Positions 13,829 through 26,193 of a stretch of DNA of 64,000 bases are shown here, piece by piece. The notes under the pieces were generated by a model that made no database searches, was not told the origin of the DNA, and saw only the letters and a program-made list of their open reading frames with translations. How positions within the stretch are numbered: the stretch's first letter is position 1; each line of letters begins with the position of its first letter. The DNA is from Prevotella sp. (GTDB taxonomy: Bacteria; Bacteroidota; Bacteroidia; Bacteroidales; Dysgonomonadaceae), in assembly GCA_031285625.1 (NCBI GenBank), contig JAITVV010000081.1, positions 1 to 64,000 on the forward strand, given 5' to 3'. Position numbers and translations under genes: made by a program.

Positions 13829-13921
13829 AGCCTTCTTTTTTAAATATAACAGAAAAGAAATGATTATAGTTTATTTTTAGGATGGGATATTTAACGGCTT
13901 CGCTAAGTTTTGAAAAAGAAA

Positions 13922-13994
13922 CCGGATAGGTCGGACTCGAACCGACAACTTCCTGCTTGACAGGCAGGTGTTCTTCCTATTGAGCTACTATCCG
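13922..13994 (-). tRNA. tRNA-Asp-like gene (anticodon GTC), atypical
   Basis: Cloverleaf by eye: acceptor CGGATAG/CTATCCG, D arm GCTC-AATAGGAA-GAAC with one mismatch (C-A), anticodon stem CCTGC/GCAGG with loop CTGTCAA, variable loop AAGTT, T stem GTCGG/CCGAC with TTCGAGT, discriminator G, no encoded CCA. Anticodon GTC reads Asp. The C1-G72 end pair is unusual for tRNA-Asp. It is the last of three related genes on this strand. Confidence 0.75.
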
Positions 13995-14012
13995 GCTGTA
14001 TTTTTGAGATAA

Positions 14013-14085
14013 CCAGACGAGCAGGACTTGAACCTGCGACCTCTCACTTAGCAGGCGAGAGCTCTTCCGGCTGAGCTATCGTCTG
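14013..14085 (-). tRNA. tRNA-like gene with Ser anticodon GCT but a class I (short variable loop) body
   Basis: Acceptor CAGACGA/TCGTCTG, D arm GCTC-AGCCGGAA-GAGC, anticodon stem CTCGC/GTGAG with loop CTGCTAA, five-base variable loop AGGTC, T stem GCAGG/CCTGC with TTCAAGT, discriminator G, 73 nt, no CCA. GCT is the anticodon for Ser codons AGC/AGU, yet bacterial tRNA-Ser needs a long variable arm for SerRS, and this gene has none. Its charging identity is therefore unclear. Confidence 0.7.
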
Positions 14086-14147
14086 GTCAGATGCAAATAT
14101 ATAAATTTAAGAGTAAGAACCGGAACGTAATCAAATTATTTTAAAAA

Positions 14148-14218
14148 TCAGACAGATTGGACTCGAACCAATGACCTCCGGATGTGGGTCCGGGCTCTTC
14201 CAACTGAGCTACTGTCTG
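14148..14218 (-). tRNA. tRNA-like gene with abnormal anticodon loop
   Basis: Acceptor CAGACAG/CTGTCTG, D arm GCTC-AGTTGGAA-GAGC and T arm ATTGG-TTCGAGT-CCAAT are all perfect, discriminator A. The anticodon hairpin is CCGGA-CCCACA-TCCGG, a perfect 5-bp stem with a 6-base loop and no U33, so no anticodon can be assigned with confidence. The gene is 71 nt, two shorter than its neighbours. It starts 8 nt after the stop codon of the SDR gene on the same strand. Confidence 0.6.
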
Positions 14219-14226
14219 ATTATATT

Positions 14227-15582
14227 CTACCAGTTTGTTTCCTTATAGTTCTTCAATAATTTACCAAATATCTTATTCCCAGTAATAATTTCACGTATAG
14301 GATGTAAGATTCGTGCAGCTCCATCGACAGAATCCAGAGGGGGAATATAGCCTTGTTCAAACTGTTTTTTTCGTAATTCTTCTTTTGCACCTGTTGATAC
14401 CCAGCCTACATCTACACAGTTCATATAGATAGAATCTTCAGCAAATTCCTCTGCTGATGTACGTGTCATCATATTTAGAGCAGCCTTGGTCATATTAGTA
14501 TGAGGATGGAAAATGGTTTTATTCGTATAGCTAAACTGACCTTCCGATGAAGTTACATTGATTATGAATCTGTCCGGATATTGGGATTTTAAGAAAAGGG
14601 ACTTCAACCCTTTAATTAACAAATACGGTGAGATCTGATTAATCAAGTTTACTTCTAATAATTCGTACATTGAGATTTCATCGAGTTTCGAATTCCAACT
14701 GTTCTTCTCTCTATTGTCTACTGGCTGTCCAAATCGGTTCTTGTCGAATGTAATGGGCATATCCTTTAATTCTAGAAAGTTTGTTTGGTTAGTAACAGGT
14801 GTTTTATTCGGTAGCAGCTTATTTTGGCCTCCTAATTTTTTTAAAGCCAGTGCTTCGTTATTAATTAACGGAACATAGTAATTGTCCGGATATTTGATTG
14901 TTTGAGCTGCATTATTTATCAGAATATCCAGAGTCTCGAATTCGGTCTTTACATAGCTGACAAAATCTTCTACTGCCCGCAAGTTCCTTAAATCCAAACC
15001 ATATACAATAAGCCTATCCTTCCATTCCGGGTAATCTGGCTCATTACTTAACTGATCTAAGGCCAGAGACGGAAAACGTGAAGATACTATAAGGTTTGCT
15101 TCGGATCGGAGAATTTTAAGGGCCGTGGCATATCCTATTTTTACTCTACCTCCGGTAAGAATAACATTTCGCCCTGTAAGATCAATTGATTCGAATCGTT
15201 GCTGGTAATTATATTCAGCACATTCAGGGCATAATCTGCTATAAAAGAAGTGCATCTTATCAAAAGGCTGATTGCATGCATAGCAGTTGTCGAATGAATT
15301 TAGTTGTTGATAACTATTGCTTTCTATTTTATGTCCACTATATGTAGATGTATTATTTTTAGCCTGTTTAGCGATTTCGGAGCTTAACAAGATATCAATA
15401 TCTTCATTTCTACGTTCTTGTGAATTGTCTTTACGTATAGTTTTCCGGGCATTCTTATGTATCTTGGTTATTAGTGTCTTGAATGTTTCATTATCAGGAT
15501 TATCAAAAGGATTATCCTTTAATGCTGTAAGCACTTTGATACATGTATTCCATTCTTCTTCTGTAAACCTTTGTGCTGACAT
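14227..15582 (-). CDS. Zinc-ribbon SDR-fold oxidoreductase with altered active site
   Basis: 451 residues. An N-terminal helical, charged region (1-95) is followed by a CxxC-x14-CxxC zinc-ribbon-like motif (C100, C103, C118, C121), then a short-chain dehydrogenase/reductase Rossmann domain from about 135 with the cofactor motif TGGRVKIG (143-150) and NNAAQT. The usual YxxxK catalytic pair is changed: the sequence HTNMTKAALN has Thr where Tyr is expected, while the Ser (NVTSSEG) and Lys remain. A 30-40 residue insertion lies in mid-domain. Its ATG directly follows the TGA of the SIS gene, so the two are translationally coupled. Substrate unknown. Confidence 0.85.
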   Translation of the reverse strand: MSAQRFTEEEWNTCIKVLTALKDNPFDNPDNETFKTLITKIHKNARKTIRKDNSQERRNEDIDILLSSEIAKQAKNNTSTYSGHKIESNSYQQLNSFDNCYACNQPFDKMHFFYSRLCPECAEYNYQQRFESIDLTGRNVILTGGRVKIGYATALKILRSEANLIVSSRFPSLALDQLSNEPDYPEWKDRLIVYGLDLRNLRAVEDFVSYVKTEFETLDILINNAAQTIKYPDNYYVPLINNEALALKKLGGQNKLLPNKTPVTNQTNFLELKDMPITFDKNRFGQPVDNREKNSWNSKLDEISMYELLEVNLINQISPYLLIKGLKSLFLKSQYPDRFIINVTSSEGQFSYTNKTIFHPHTNMTKAALNMMTRTSAEEFAEDSIYMNCVDVGWVSTGAKEELRKKQFEQGYIPPLDSVDGAARILHPIREIITGNKIFGKLLKNYKETNW

Positions 15583-16188
15583 TCATTTACTTATTTCTCT
15601 TGATTTTTCGCCCAGATAGCCCCCATGATGGCGTTTCGCATAATCTGAGATTGTAAAGCCGATTCTTTTCATAGTGCCTACAACCAGTATGTCTCCTATC
15701 ACAGTCATTACAGTAGTGGAAGTAGTGGGGGTAAGCCCCAATCCACAAACTTCGTCAGGACGTCCGGTCAAAAGACATACATCTGCTTTTTGCGCCAAAA
15801 GGCTGTCGGGATCACTTGTGATAACTATAAACTGAATGCCGGGAATAAGATTTTTAGCTAATGTGATAAGTTCTATAATTTCCCTGGTTTTTCCGGAATT
15901 GGAAATTGCCAGTACAATATCATTCTCCTGTAAAATACCTAAATCTCCGTGTTGTGCTTCACTGGGATGCAGGAATACGGCAGGGGTGCCTGTTGAGCTA
16001 AATGTAGTTGCCATATTTTGTGCTATTTGCCCAGCCTTTCCCATACCGCTGGTGACCAGTTTTCCCTTCTTTTTATTGACTTGTTCTACAATAAGGTCAA
16101 TAGCTTTACCATAGGCATCACTAATGGGAATATTCATTATTGCCGAGGCTTCATGCGCCAGAATAGAACGTATATCGTCAGTATTCAT
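15583..16188 (-). CDS. SIS-domain sugar-phosphate isomerase, KpsF/GutQ type without CBS domains
   Basis: 201 residues from ATG 16188; an upstream in-frame ATG at 16224 is unlikely because it would precede the promoter box. The SIS fold shows SGMGKAGQIAQNMATTFSSTG, then HPSEAQHGDLG and AISNSGKTREI, the signature of arabinose-5-phosphate isomerases (Ru5P to A5P, for Kdo synthesis). The C-terminal CBS pair found in full KdsD/KpsF proteins is absent; the protein ends after DYAKRHHGGYLG. Its TGA abuts the ATG of the SDR gene. It may act on A5P or on another sugar phosphate. Confidence 0.88.
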   Translation of the reverse strand: MNTDDIRSILAHEASAIMNIPISDAYGKAIDLIVEQVNKKKGKLVTSGMGKAGQIAQNMATTFSSTGTPAVFLHPSEAQHGDLGILQENDIVLAISNSGKTREIIELITLAKNLIPGIQFIVITSDPDSLLAQKADVCLLTGRPDEVCGLGLTPTTSTTVMTVIGDILVVGTMKRIGFTISDYAKRHHGGYLGEKSREISK

Positions 16189-16202: not shown

Positions 16203-16210
16203 CAAAGATA
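16203..16210 (-). promoter_or_regulatory. -7 promoter box upstream of the SIS-SDR-tRNA unit
   Basis: TATCTTTG on the minus strand, 14 nt before ATG 16188 and just after the purE terminator. It would start a transcript through SIS, SDR and the three tRNA-like genes. Confidence 0.5.
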
Positions 16211-16235
16211 CAATATTTATCCAAATTTAAACAAT

Positions 16236-16267
16236 AAGGATCTGAACAGATAATTGCTCAGATCCTT
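16236..16267 (-). terminator. Terminator-like hairpin after purE
   Basis: AAGGATCTGA and TCAGATCCTT form a 10-bp stem with a 12-nt loop; the minus-strand exit reads ATTGTTTAAATTT, a weak T-rich tract. It lies 20 nt downstream of the purE stop. Confidence 0.65.
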
Positions 16268-19603: not shown

Positions 19604-19933
19604 ATGAAAATAACATATATACCTCTTATAATATGTTTCATACTATTGTTAGGATGCAATAATAAACATACAGTTACAAAACCTCAAATTCCTGCTGATA
19701 CTTTAGTTTCAGAAACTTCAGATAACTATAATAAGATAAACGAAAAAAATATAAATTTATTTACCTCTATTGTATGGAATAAGATCGAGTCTTTATCGAA
19801 GCATTTTGCCCTCTTCGTCAATAAGAAATATAACCAGCTCTCCATCAGGAAACAAAGGAGAGCACACCTTATAGCAATTATGGATAATCAGATCAAAAAA
19901 TGCAGACTCCTTTTCTGTAATGATCTCCCATAG
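19604..19933 (+). CDS. Small putative lipoprotein whose C-terminal half is antisense to cbiJ-cbiD
   Basis: The first 63 codons (19604-19792) lie in free sequence and encode a convincing lipoprotein leader (MKITYIPLIICFILLLGC, lipobox LLGC) plus a polar, Lys/Asn-rich segment. From 19793 the frame runs for another 46 codons antisense through the 3' end of the CbiJ-CbiD gene and becomes basic, which looks like read-through of non-native sequence. Either a truncated lipoprotein gene cut at about 19793 by rearrangement, or a true overlapping gene. No family recognised. Confidence 0.45.
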   Translation: MKITYIPLIICFILLLGCNNKHTVTKPQIPADTLVSETSDNYNKINEKNINLFTSIVWNKIESLSKHFALFVNKKYNQLSIRKQRRAHLIAIMDNQIKKCRLLFCNDLP

Positions 19934-21616
19934 CTGGCGTGCCATGATCATTTCCGATATGCTTTTTATTGTATCCTCCGAACAATCCGATTGACGTGCC
20001 ATTTCCATCAGGAATTCCTTATTCATTACTATTTTCTTACTATGCGTCTCTAATGAACCTTCGGCCAACTTAACAGCCTTACCTATCATAATACCCAGTG
20101 TCAGTTTCTTGAAGCCGAGATCAGCAGCTATCTTTATTGTCTCCCCTATAAAGTTTCCATAATGGATAAATGCCTGAGAAGGCAGATCAGGATATTGCGC
20201 TTTCACATATCTTTCACTTTTTGCTCCTGAATTTATAACAACCCTTTCACAATTTAAAGCTTTTGCTACTTGCATTTCACGATGTATGGAAGCAACGAAA
20301 GCTTCGGATGAAAACGGTTTTACAATGCCCGAAGTTCCAATAATGGATATGCCACCCACAATGCCCAGCTTGGGATTGAATGTCTTTAAGGCTAGTTCCT
20401 CCCCATTAGGCACAGAGATAGTTATGTCCACTCCTGTTTTCAAATTCATACCCGGCAACCGATCCTGAAGATGACGAAAGACTTTAAACACCTCTCTTTT
20501 CATCATCATACGAGGGGTTTTGTTTATCGAAGGTTCACCTATAGCAGCATCCAATCCAGGTAAAGTTACCTTTCCAACGCCTTTTCCTTGTAAGAATCGA
20601 ACGCCTTTGTGACTGTTATTCAGACAGACAGTAGAAACAATCTCCTGCCCGTTTGTTATATCCGGATCATCTCCCGAATCTTTCAACACTGTACTGCTTA
20701 CTTTATTATCATCCACTCTTGTAGAATGAATCGGTATTCGAACCCACTCCCCATTTGGTAATGTAAGACTAACATCTGTCTGCTCTTCCCCTGTCAGTAA
20801 AGTTATCAAGGCTGCTTTAGTTGCAGCAGTAGCACACGTTCCGGTAGTATATCCGGTTTTCAATTCAAAAAAATCAGGCAAAAGCTTTTCTATTTGTTTT
20901 CTCAAACCATTTTCACCATAAACAGATATAAAAAATGGAGATAAAGTAGGACGTTTCACTACAAGAACAGGAATATTCAGTTTTTGTGCAGCCTTAATTT
21001 TCTCGTTGAACCCGCCCGATTCACCGCTTTCCTTAGTTATAATAGCTTTTGGCTTTAACTCTTCAAATAAAGGAGCTTCATCCTCTCCTTGATTATAGTA
21101 CAGTATCCGTTCAAAAGGAAATCCCTCCTTAGTTACGATTGATCGGGATTCTTCTCTGTCCAGAATACGAAACCAGCAAGTATGTTTTTCCCAATACGGC
21201 TTGAGTTTAGAAATAGTATTCACTCCTGTAAGAGCTAAAAGATTGTCAACCTTATTATTTTCAAGATATCCGATTGCATCATTGTAGGAATCGAACCACA
21301 GCAGATTATCTTCATGCTCGGAATAGTTGCGTTCAAGCCTGATTACAGGAATATTCAGATTATGAGAAACGGTTGCAATATTCTGATGTAATGCTTCAGC
21401 AAAAGGATGGGCTGCGTCTATTATCAATTTTATGTCTTCCTCTTTACAAAAGCTAACCATAGAATCCTGATCCATAGCACCTGTCAGACGAATACCATGT
21501 ACGGTTTCCACCTTTTGTAGATCGCCTTTGGTAGCATAATAGTAAGGCTTGGCGGCCTCATCACAAACCGAAATTGCCTTACGTCCTTCTGTTGTACCTC
21601 CAAATACCAGAATCAT
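19793..21616 (-). CDS. CbiJ-CbiD fusion: precorrin-6A reductase plus cobalt-precorrin-5B C1-methyltransferase
   Basis: Two corrin-ring enzymes in one 607-residue chain. Residues 1-250 are a CobK/CbiJ reductase (ILVFGGTTEGRKAI at the N terminus, DAAHPFAEALHQN near 67-79, LLALTGVNTISKLKPYW). Residues 253-607 are CbiD, with the hallmark TGYTTGTCATAATKAAL from 254 and SGDDPDITNGQEI near 315. The start overlaps the btuD stop by 4 nt. Such fusions are known in Bacteroidetes. It is the last gene of the riboswitch-controlled operon; the other ring-contraction enzymes are not in the window. Confidence 0.93.
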   Translation of the reverse strand: MILVFGGTTEGRKAISVCDEAAKPYYYATKGDLQKVETVHGIRLTGAMDQDSMVSFCKEEDIKLIIDAAHPFAEALHQNIATVSHNLNIPVIRLERNYSEHEDNLLWFDSYNDAIGYLENNKVDNLLALTGVNTISKLKPYWEKHTCWFRILDREESRSIVTKEGFPFERILYYNQGEDEAPLFEELKPKAIITKESGESGGFNEKIKAAQKLNIPVLVVKRPTLSPFFISVYGENGLRKQIEKLLPDFFELKTGYTTGTCATAATKAALITLLTGEEQTDVSLTLPNGEWVRIPIHSTRVDDNKVSSTVLKDSGDDPDITNGQEIVSTVCLNNSHKGVRFLQGKGVGKVTLPGLDAAIGEPSINKTPRMMMKREVFKVFRHLQDRLPGMNLKTGVDITISVPNGEELALKTFNPKLGIVGGISIIGTSGIVKPFSSEAFVASIHREMQVAKALNCERVVINSGAKSERYVKAQYPDLPSQAFIHYGNFIGETIKIAADLGFKKLTLGIMIGKAVKLAEGSLETHSKKIVMNKEFLMEMARQSDCSEDTIKSISEMIMARQLWEIITEKESAFFDLIIHNCYKVCSPLFPDGELVIFLIDEEGKMLR

Positions 21617-25833: not shown

Positions 25834-25949
25834 CTCAAACTCACTTTTTTAGAGTAACCAGATGCTTTTAGTGTAGGATTAAATAGACAACATTTTTAAG
25901 AGTAGTCAGTATAAGTATTAAGCCTAAACCTCGAGCTTTAACTAAAATA

Positions 25950-26179
25950 ATCTTGGCAGGTCTTCTGACTTACTCTATCTTTGAACGCCTTCCCATTTTA
26001 TTAGCCTTTAGCTTATAAAACAGTGGTATTTGGTTTTGTTCAAAGATTTTTCAGTAAAGCTGTTAACTGATGACTGTCAACTGCTCACTGAAAAGAGCTT
26101 ACAGCAGCGGGTCTGTTCAGGATTTACACCTGATTCCCTTTTCATCATTCATCCGATGCGGACTAATGACACCAAAATT
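25950..26179 (-). ncRNA. Cobalamin (B12) riboswitch
   Basis: On the minus strand the element starts at P1 strand AATTTTGG (26179-26172) and closes with CCAAGATT (25957-25950). Inside are the conserved GGGAATCAGGTGTAAATCC segment with CAGACCCGC after it, the CCACTG motif, GGGAAGGCG, and the B12 box AGTCAGAAGACCTGCC just before P1 closes. All are class I hallmarks in correct order. It precedes cbiL by about 115 nt and should shut the operon down when adenosylcobalamin is plentiful. Confidence 0.95.
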
Positions 26180-26185
26180 TCAGGA

Positions 26186-26193
26186 CAAAGATA
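26186..26193 (-). promoter_or_regulatory. -7 promoter box for the riboswitch-controlled operon
   Basis: TATCTTTG on the minus strand ends 6 nt before the P1 stem of the riboswitch, exactly where transcription should begin. The remainder of the gap to the DUF418 stop is AT-rich. Confidence 0.65.

Follow-up and report, generated by a model that had tools for sequence, protein, structure and literature searches.

What are three genes for transfer RNA-like molecules with ill-matched anticodons doing directly behind the gene of a protein with the fold of short-chain dehydrogenases/reductases (SDR)? The locus that raises this question lies on a contig of Prevotella sp. (GTDB family Dysgonomonadaceae; GenBank assembly GCA_031285625.1, contig JAITVV010000081.1), of which we analysed positions 1 to 64,000 of the forward strand, referred to below as the window. 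With a probability of roughly 45%, we propose that the unit is a dedicated SDR-RNA system in which non-decoding tRNA-like RNAs act as decoys for RNases directed at anticodons. This proposal builds on the physical linkage of the SDR gene with the RNAs, their co-occurrence across genomes, a D-loop mark shared by the RNAs and the loss of decoding features in many of them. A more specific version is more tentative still: the array may be a fast-diversifying decoy bank, in which the SDR holds the conserved bodies, the loops track anticodon-cutting enzymes, and RNA-sealing enzymes are encoded in many of the islands. Both versions also draw on the changing loops in Flavobacterium, where the RNA body stays almost constant, and on the RNA-repair genes that neighbour the unit in three genera. 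The features of the window locus are as follows.

13921..13995, minus strand: tRNA-like 3, with an Asp-GUC-type loop CTGTCAA and D-loop GGAA
14012..14086, minus strand: tRNA-like 2, with a Ser-GCU-type loop CTGCTAA and D-loop GGAA, on a body without a long variable arm
14094..14101, minus strand: box TATATTTG just 5' of tRNA-like 2, also present in locus L061
14147..14219, minus strand: tRNA-like 1, with a six-nucleotide anticodon loop CCCACA and D-loop GGAA, without U33
14227..15582, minus strand: SDR-fold gene, 451 aa, with an N-terminal extension, a Cys4 zinc ribbon and an altered active site
14485..14508, minus strand: motif HPHTNMTK (residues 359-366), with Thr362 at the position of the catalytic Tyr of YxxxK
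15220..15285, minus strand: codons of the zinc ribbon, C100-x2-C103 ... C118-x2-C121, with no variation across 18 aligned homologues
15583..16188, minus strand: SIS-domain gene resembling sugar-phosphate isomerases (KpsF/GutQ type without CBS), adjoining the SDR gene
16203..16234, minus strand: promoter-like TTG-N21-TATCTTTG 5' of the SIS gene, also present in Dysgonomonas sp. 521
16236..16267, minus strand: terminator-like hairpin in the interval between purE and the SIS gene

An earlier note on this DNA described much of this arrangement, and coordinates, ARAGORN and Rfam bear out its core. The SIS and SDR genes meet at TGAATG. Behind them, in the same orientation, come three tRNA-like genes, the first of which starts 7 nt past the SDR stop rather than the 8 nt given there. 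ARAGORN and Rfam both call the three RNAs (50.2, 64.5 and 63.5 bits for tRNA-like 1, 2 and 3), and their "anticodons" are indeed unassignable, GCT and GTC. In the Rfam alignment all three carry the D-loop GGAA and, in the 7-bp register, C1-G72, as the note had said; the T-arms that it also took to be shared are not alike in their stems. For Asp(GTC) and Ser(GCT) the host has tRNAs of the ordinary kind, the latter with the long arm, encoded elsewhere in the genome. Both signals reported upstream of the SIS gene, a hairpin and a promoter box that we take to be of the Bacteroidetes type, can be seen in the sequence. The statement that none was seen further inside the unit needs amendment: since the box TATATTTG, presumably a Bacteroidetes-type -7 box, stands 5' of the Ser-type gene and is kept in a relative, it is a possible internal promoter for this RNA. 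The order SIS, SDR, ca-type, Ser-type and Asp-type RNA recurs in the nearest relative, Dysgonomonas sp. 521 of the same genus (G018; L032 and L061), with 84% identity between the SDR proteins. Within the genus, 2 of the 25 genomes searched, the window's own included, contain a close match to the window SDR; the remaining matches were weak and fell on the common SDR domain.

Which of these genes belong together in general became clear from a scan of genome contigs that yielded 39 loci encoding a relative of the SDR. ARAGORN finds tRNAs beside the SDR gene in 38 of them. In 35 loci the tRNAs lie downstream, the first within 104 nt of the SDR stop in every case and within 13 nt in 29; in the other three, all from Chitinophaga, the tRNA is located just 5' of the SDR gene. 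L097 is tRNA-free and the sole exception among the 39. Besides the window, only 1 of 40 related loci (L061) has a SIS gene nearby, and both are Dysgonomonas, so SIS does not generally belong to the unit. The claim that enzyme genes are linked to non-standard tRNAs therefore survives for the SDR and falls for SIS, and what Dysgonomonas sp. 521 preserves as a five-gene order is elsewhere a unit lacking SIS. At all 19 loci of a related clade of SDRs with about 520 aa, taken from the same phylum search, neither ARAGORN nor covariance model R1 (see below) detects a tRNA within about 6 kb on each side of the SDR gene where the contig permits. Four plasmid records encode more distant SDR relatives. 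The one from Deinococcus (38% identity) has a GGAA tRNA-like gene upstream, and no tRNA was found with the three actinobacterial homologues. In a tree of 51 SDRs, which contains some long branches, the 28 tRNA-linked proteins fall on one side of a single branch with moderate support (91/74), a topology suggesting that the tRNA association reflects one change on the tree.

The RNAs in these arrays resemble one another beyond their position. An alignment of 40 ARAGORN-called RNAs from SDR loci shows hardly any variation in the D-loop GGAA, and in 20 of its 21 consensus pairs both sides have changed, as in a cloverleaf with covarying stems. Covariance model R1 produced 141 matches over 53 sources and another 41 over 14 further Flavobacterium loci. 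Among the 128 of the 141 that could be parsed, 114 have GGAA, 5 GAAA (two of them Leu-type tRNAs of a second cluster described below), 5 AGAA and 4 GGTA; the 13 unparsed matches include ordinary tRNAs and one GGAA RNA (L082). A strict recount, limited to GGAA and with one spurious match excluded, gives 121 distinct RNAs. The mark is found in none of 75 distinct ordinary tRNAs from the window's own genome and Flavobacterium G733, the latter represented by part of its 73 Rfam matches. Two tRNA-like matches with long inserts lie 5' of a Tenacibaculum unit (L091:1233-1364 and 2363-2500). Dysgonomonas sp. 521 contains a fourth, unlinked GGAA tRNA-like gene (L223:6557-6629, on G018 contig C236) near two genes that by eye resemble those of threonine synthase and a serine recombinase.

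Mark and protein also keep company at the level of whole genomes. The SDR is patchy in Flavobacterium, being encoded in 15 of 348 genomes (E at most 1e-180; two draws of genomes treated as one set). A DNA pattern for the GGAA RNAs matched 14 of these 15 genomes and 4 of the 333 without the SDR (18 of 348 in all; Fisher 1.3e-20), and the reversed pattern matched none of the 348. The matches in the four SDR-lacking genomes comprise two within longer tRNA runs, one single Leu call and one that ARAGORN does not call. Among the window's own genome and 60 relatives, the pattern matched precisely the two carriers of the SDR. With regard to whether the RNAs occur alone in relatives, this result upholds their link to the SDR; a link to SIS is confined to the two Dysgonomonas loci.

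Judged by features that ordinary tRNAs retain, many GGAA RNAs do not look like decoders. U33 occurs in 48 of 106 seven-nucleotide loops, compared to 42 of 42 distinct ordinary loops, and 15 of the 121 RNAs have anticodon loops of five or six nucleotides (the arm was parsed by a simple script, so that loops on stems of 4 bp may be off by one position). C74 is encoded in 44 of 113 GGAA RNAs (2 of 115 have no readable base) versus 28 of 28 and 30 of 30 ordinary tRNAs. Bases -1 and 73 could pair in 95 of 115; because the same holds for 14 of 28 ordinary tRNAs, this pairing is only enriched. The Ser-type GGAA RNAs listed lack the long variable arm required by SerRS. In the window none of the three RNAs has an encoded C74, although CCA could still be added, and two have U33, so these three by themselves do not exclude decoding.

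The protein departs from its own family at the catalytic Tyr position. Pfam recognizes only SDR domains (adh_short, adh_short_C2), and in the alignment the Rossmann features are in place, with a glycine motif TGGRVKIG and an NNA motif NNAAQ. The catalytic YxxxK of classical SDRs was not found: Thr occupies the Tyr position in 18 of 18 and 29 of 29 aligned homologues (overlapping sets), and an alignment with PDB entries places Thr there likewise. The motif HPHTNM.K is present at all 24 loci scanned, four of which are also in the 18-homologue alignment, and the homologues share HPHTNM(T/A)K together with the Cys4 ribbon. Since the tRNA-free clade (L108-L126) has the same ribbon and the same altered motif, the altered site does not set the tRNA-linked SDRs apart. 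That clade offers a natural comparison for the core activity of the SDR.

Few parts of a normal tRNA lineage are as constrained as the anticodon loop. Where two loci have SDRs of 85% identity or more (35 pairs), the SDR-proximal RNAs mismatch at 74 of 239 loop sites, 49 of 294 loop-stem sites and 230 of 1969 sites elsewhere; these pairs were chosen on SDR identity and are non-independent, and loop differences may be concealed by gaps in the alignment. Among seven Flavobacterium loci (21 pairs) there are five different loops on a body that differs at 0 to 4 of 53 sites, the stem being free of mismatches, and a 17-row alignment also shows the RNA body to be largely fixed. Two Tenacibaculum loci differ at 3 of 7 loop sites and at 1 of 62 others. 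In Flavobacterium it is thus the loop that changes while the body hardly does, and the neighbouring protein is one that would not be expected to bind tRNA. Most arrays contain several tRNA-like genes with different anticodon loops. Some loops recur: NNGCTAA is found in 24 of the 47 loci counted after removal of identical sequences. Others coincide with loops in normal use. Identity with an ordinary anticodon loop was observed for 27 of 105 loops where column shuffling predicts 6.8 (maximum 14 in 1000 shuffles); when each distinct loop is counted once, 8 of 68 match against 2.7 expected, a value reached by 0.25% of 2000 shuffles.

Further evidence comes from the genes around the unit. By phmmer, the 40 loci contain RtcB (6), PNKP (6), RLIG1-like ligase (4), RNase T (4), Sir2 (4), a DUF5724/DUF4132 protein (6), a DUF434/DUF5616 protein (21), TatD (16) and an unnamed 230-aa protein (21). 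The 19 loci of the tRNA-free clade gave no match to any of these queries, which were named by Pfam and drawn from tRNA-linked loci, so that the comparison leans towards the latter; T4-type ligases were not among them. RtcB, PNKP or RLIG1 occurs in 14 of the 40 loci, specifically 12 of 13 from Flavobacterium and 2 of 2 from Aquimarina. A T4 Rnl2-type ligase is encoded in one Tenacibaculum locus (L084), and the island in the complete Flavobacterium genome G733 (L203) contains a T4 Rnl1-type ligase, PNKP and a NACHT-type protein. Upstream of the unit in Dysgonomonas sp. 521 lies an AbiL-like pair (RloB and an AAA ATPase).

Other neighbours deserve mention in their own right. Two proteins are encoded 5' of the SDR in 21 of the 40 loci each: the 230-aa protein (L077:5283-5972 and homologues), which has no Pfam match above the cut-off and may be a further component of the unit, and the DUF434/DUF5616 protein (L074:5192-5902 and homologues), the motifs of which look by eye like those of NYN/PIN nucleases. 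Near the RLIG1-like ligase, Flavobacterium islands contain another tRNA cluster, of more ordinary appearance and with Arg, Asp, His, Pro and Leu calls (L203:17520-17819 and L224:14064-14671; also L065, L067, L069 and L070). Elsewhere in the window, Rfam identifies a cobalamin riboswitch (25938-26191, minus strand), and the open reading frame at 19793-21616 looks by eye like a gene for cobalamin biosynthesis.

How might such a system work? The SDR-fold protein would read the GGAA D-loop mark and so bind the array RNAs, as the shared mark and the linkage suggest. Neither charged nor used for decoding, these RNAs would display varied anticodon arms as baits for nucleases that act as toxins, are triggered by phage or come from competitors. 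The bank would draw such anticodon nucleases away from real tRNAs, or report an attack on them, and RNA cut in the process could be resealed by the products of the end-healing and ligase genes found nearby in several genera. It is the combination of loop mimicry and loop change that points to decoy action.

Several observations weigh against this proposal. RtcB, PNKP and RLIG1 occur in none of the 25 loci outside Flavobacterium and Aquimarina, and no repair gene that we searched for lies within the 64-kb window; the RtcB gene of this genome is on another contig. The contrast between loop and body is weak in Chryseobacterium: its 13 pairs also differ in the body, at 0 to 30 of roughly 60 sites, and for 4 of them the alignment contains no mismatch in the loop. 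Many loops are poor copies of the reference tRNAs, as 60 of the 68 distinct loops equal no ordinary loop. Finally, given the altered active site in the tRNA-free clade, the SDR may have a basic role that does not need the RNAs.

The main rival, which we consider unlikely, is that SDR and tRNA-like RNA make up a ribonucleoprotein that serves RNA repair or decay as a scaffold or sensor, comparable to Ro with Y RNA. The tRNA-like part would guide enzymes or report damage, and loop variation would reflect relaxed constraint on a region that has ceased to decode. The RNA-repair neighbours, the shared GGAA mark, the conserved body in Flavobacterium and the non-decoding features of the RNAs are all consistent with such a particle. 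Relaxed constraint alone does not explain why NNGCTAA loops recur, why loops of ordinary type are in excess or why an array should hold several different RNAs.

A variable loop on a nearly fixed body, as in Flavobacterium, could also mean that the loops are short antisense guides to target RNA while the SDR holds the constant part. We regard this as improbable: the seed would be very short, and the reverse complements of anticodon loops in normal use show no enrichment (1 of 105 against 2.4 expected), which speaks against pairing with anticodon loops themselves.

There is similarly little to recommend the chemistry suggested by the earlier note, in which the RNAs would be charged and the SDR would act with SIS on an aminoacyl group or a sugar. 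The physical linkage of a protein of NAD(P)-binding fold to tRNA-like genes speaks for such a pathway. However, Thr replaces the catalytic Tyr in all homologues looked at, loops vary within arrays and between close relatives, many loops lack U33, C74 is not kept, and the Ser-type RNAs have no long arm. Tied to both SIS and SDR, a general tRNA-dependent pathway is rejected by the rarity of SIS at related loci.

It is just as doubtful that the arrays are ordinary or degenerating backup tRNAs that hitch-hike with the SDR in a mobile island. The patchy distribution of the SDR in Flavobacterium and the ordinary-looking tRNA clusters near the RLIG1-like ligase in some islands would fit. The GGAA signature with covarying stems argues otherwise, as does the fact that the RNAs track one SDR clade across families and reappear on the Deinococcus plasmid. 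Linkage by chance, which the earlier note had allowed for, is excluded by the tRNA-free related clade and the genome-wide co-occurrence, and the five-gene order in Dysgonomonas sp. 521 likewise points to more than chance. A phage origin was dismissed after tblastn of phage records and a close-relative scan of viral contigs revealed no SDR relative.

If the decoy proposal is correct, the unit would represent a modular bacterial answer to anticodon nucleases and show an SDR in a new role, the binding of RNA; it would also explain odd tRNA calls in public genomes. In the literature covered, to which most subscription papers and the 2016 RNA-repair review do not belong, we found no account of SDR-linked tRNA arrays; several known systems are related in part. 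Allo-tRNAs are defined by 8/4 or 9/3 acceptor branches of 12 bp. Like the RNAs described here they are non-canonical bacterial tRNAs with odd anticodons. They differ in that the window RNAs have 7 acceptor and 5 T-stem pairs (Rfam alignment), and in the family often a possible extra pair -1:73; we know of no SDR link for allo-tRNAs. A second class of relatives is formed by the SPFH/Band-7 RNA-repair modules with tRNA-like RNA that Burroughs and Aravind reportedly described in 2016. These, too, are said to place a scaffold-type protein and a tRNA-like RNA next to RNA ligases, with a protein fold different from that of the SDR. No SPFH/Band-7 protein, and no TROVE domain, was detected among the part of the neighbours that we scanned with Pfam. 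Phage-borne tRNA arrays are likewise tRNA gene arrays in conflict with anticodon nucleases, and one report describes phage tRNAs as substitutes for host tRNAs cut by nucleases (PMC7824862). Many members of the arrays described here differ from such substitutes by lacking U33 and C74.

A further parallel is Rsr (Ro60/TROVE) with its Y RNA YrlA and rtcBA operons, where a non-ligase protein likewise stands beside a tRNA-like RNA in a setting of RNA repair. The tRNA-like domain of YrlA has been proposed as a competitive inhibitor of an anticodon nuclease (PMC7790460). In our system the protein is, by Pfam, an SDR instead of a TROVE protein, and most arrays provide several tRNA-like RNAs with different loops. 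The system described here also opens to testing the function of Y RNAs and other tRNA-like RNAs within RNA-repair operons.

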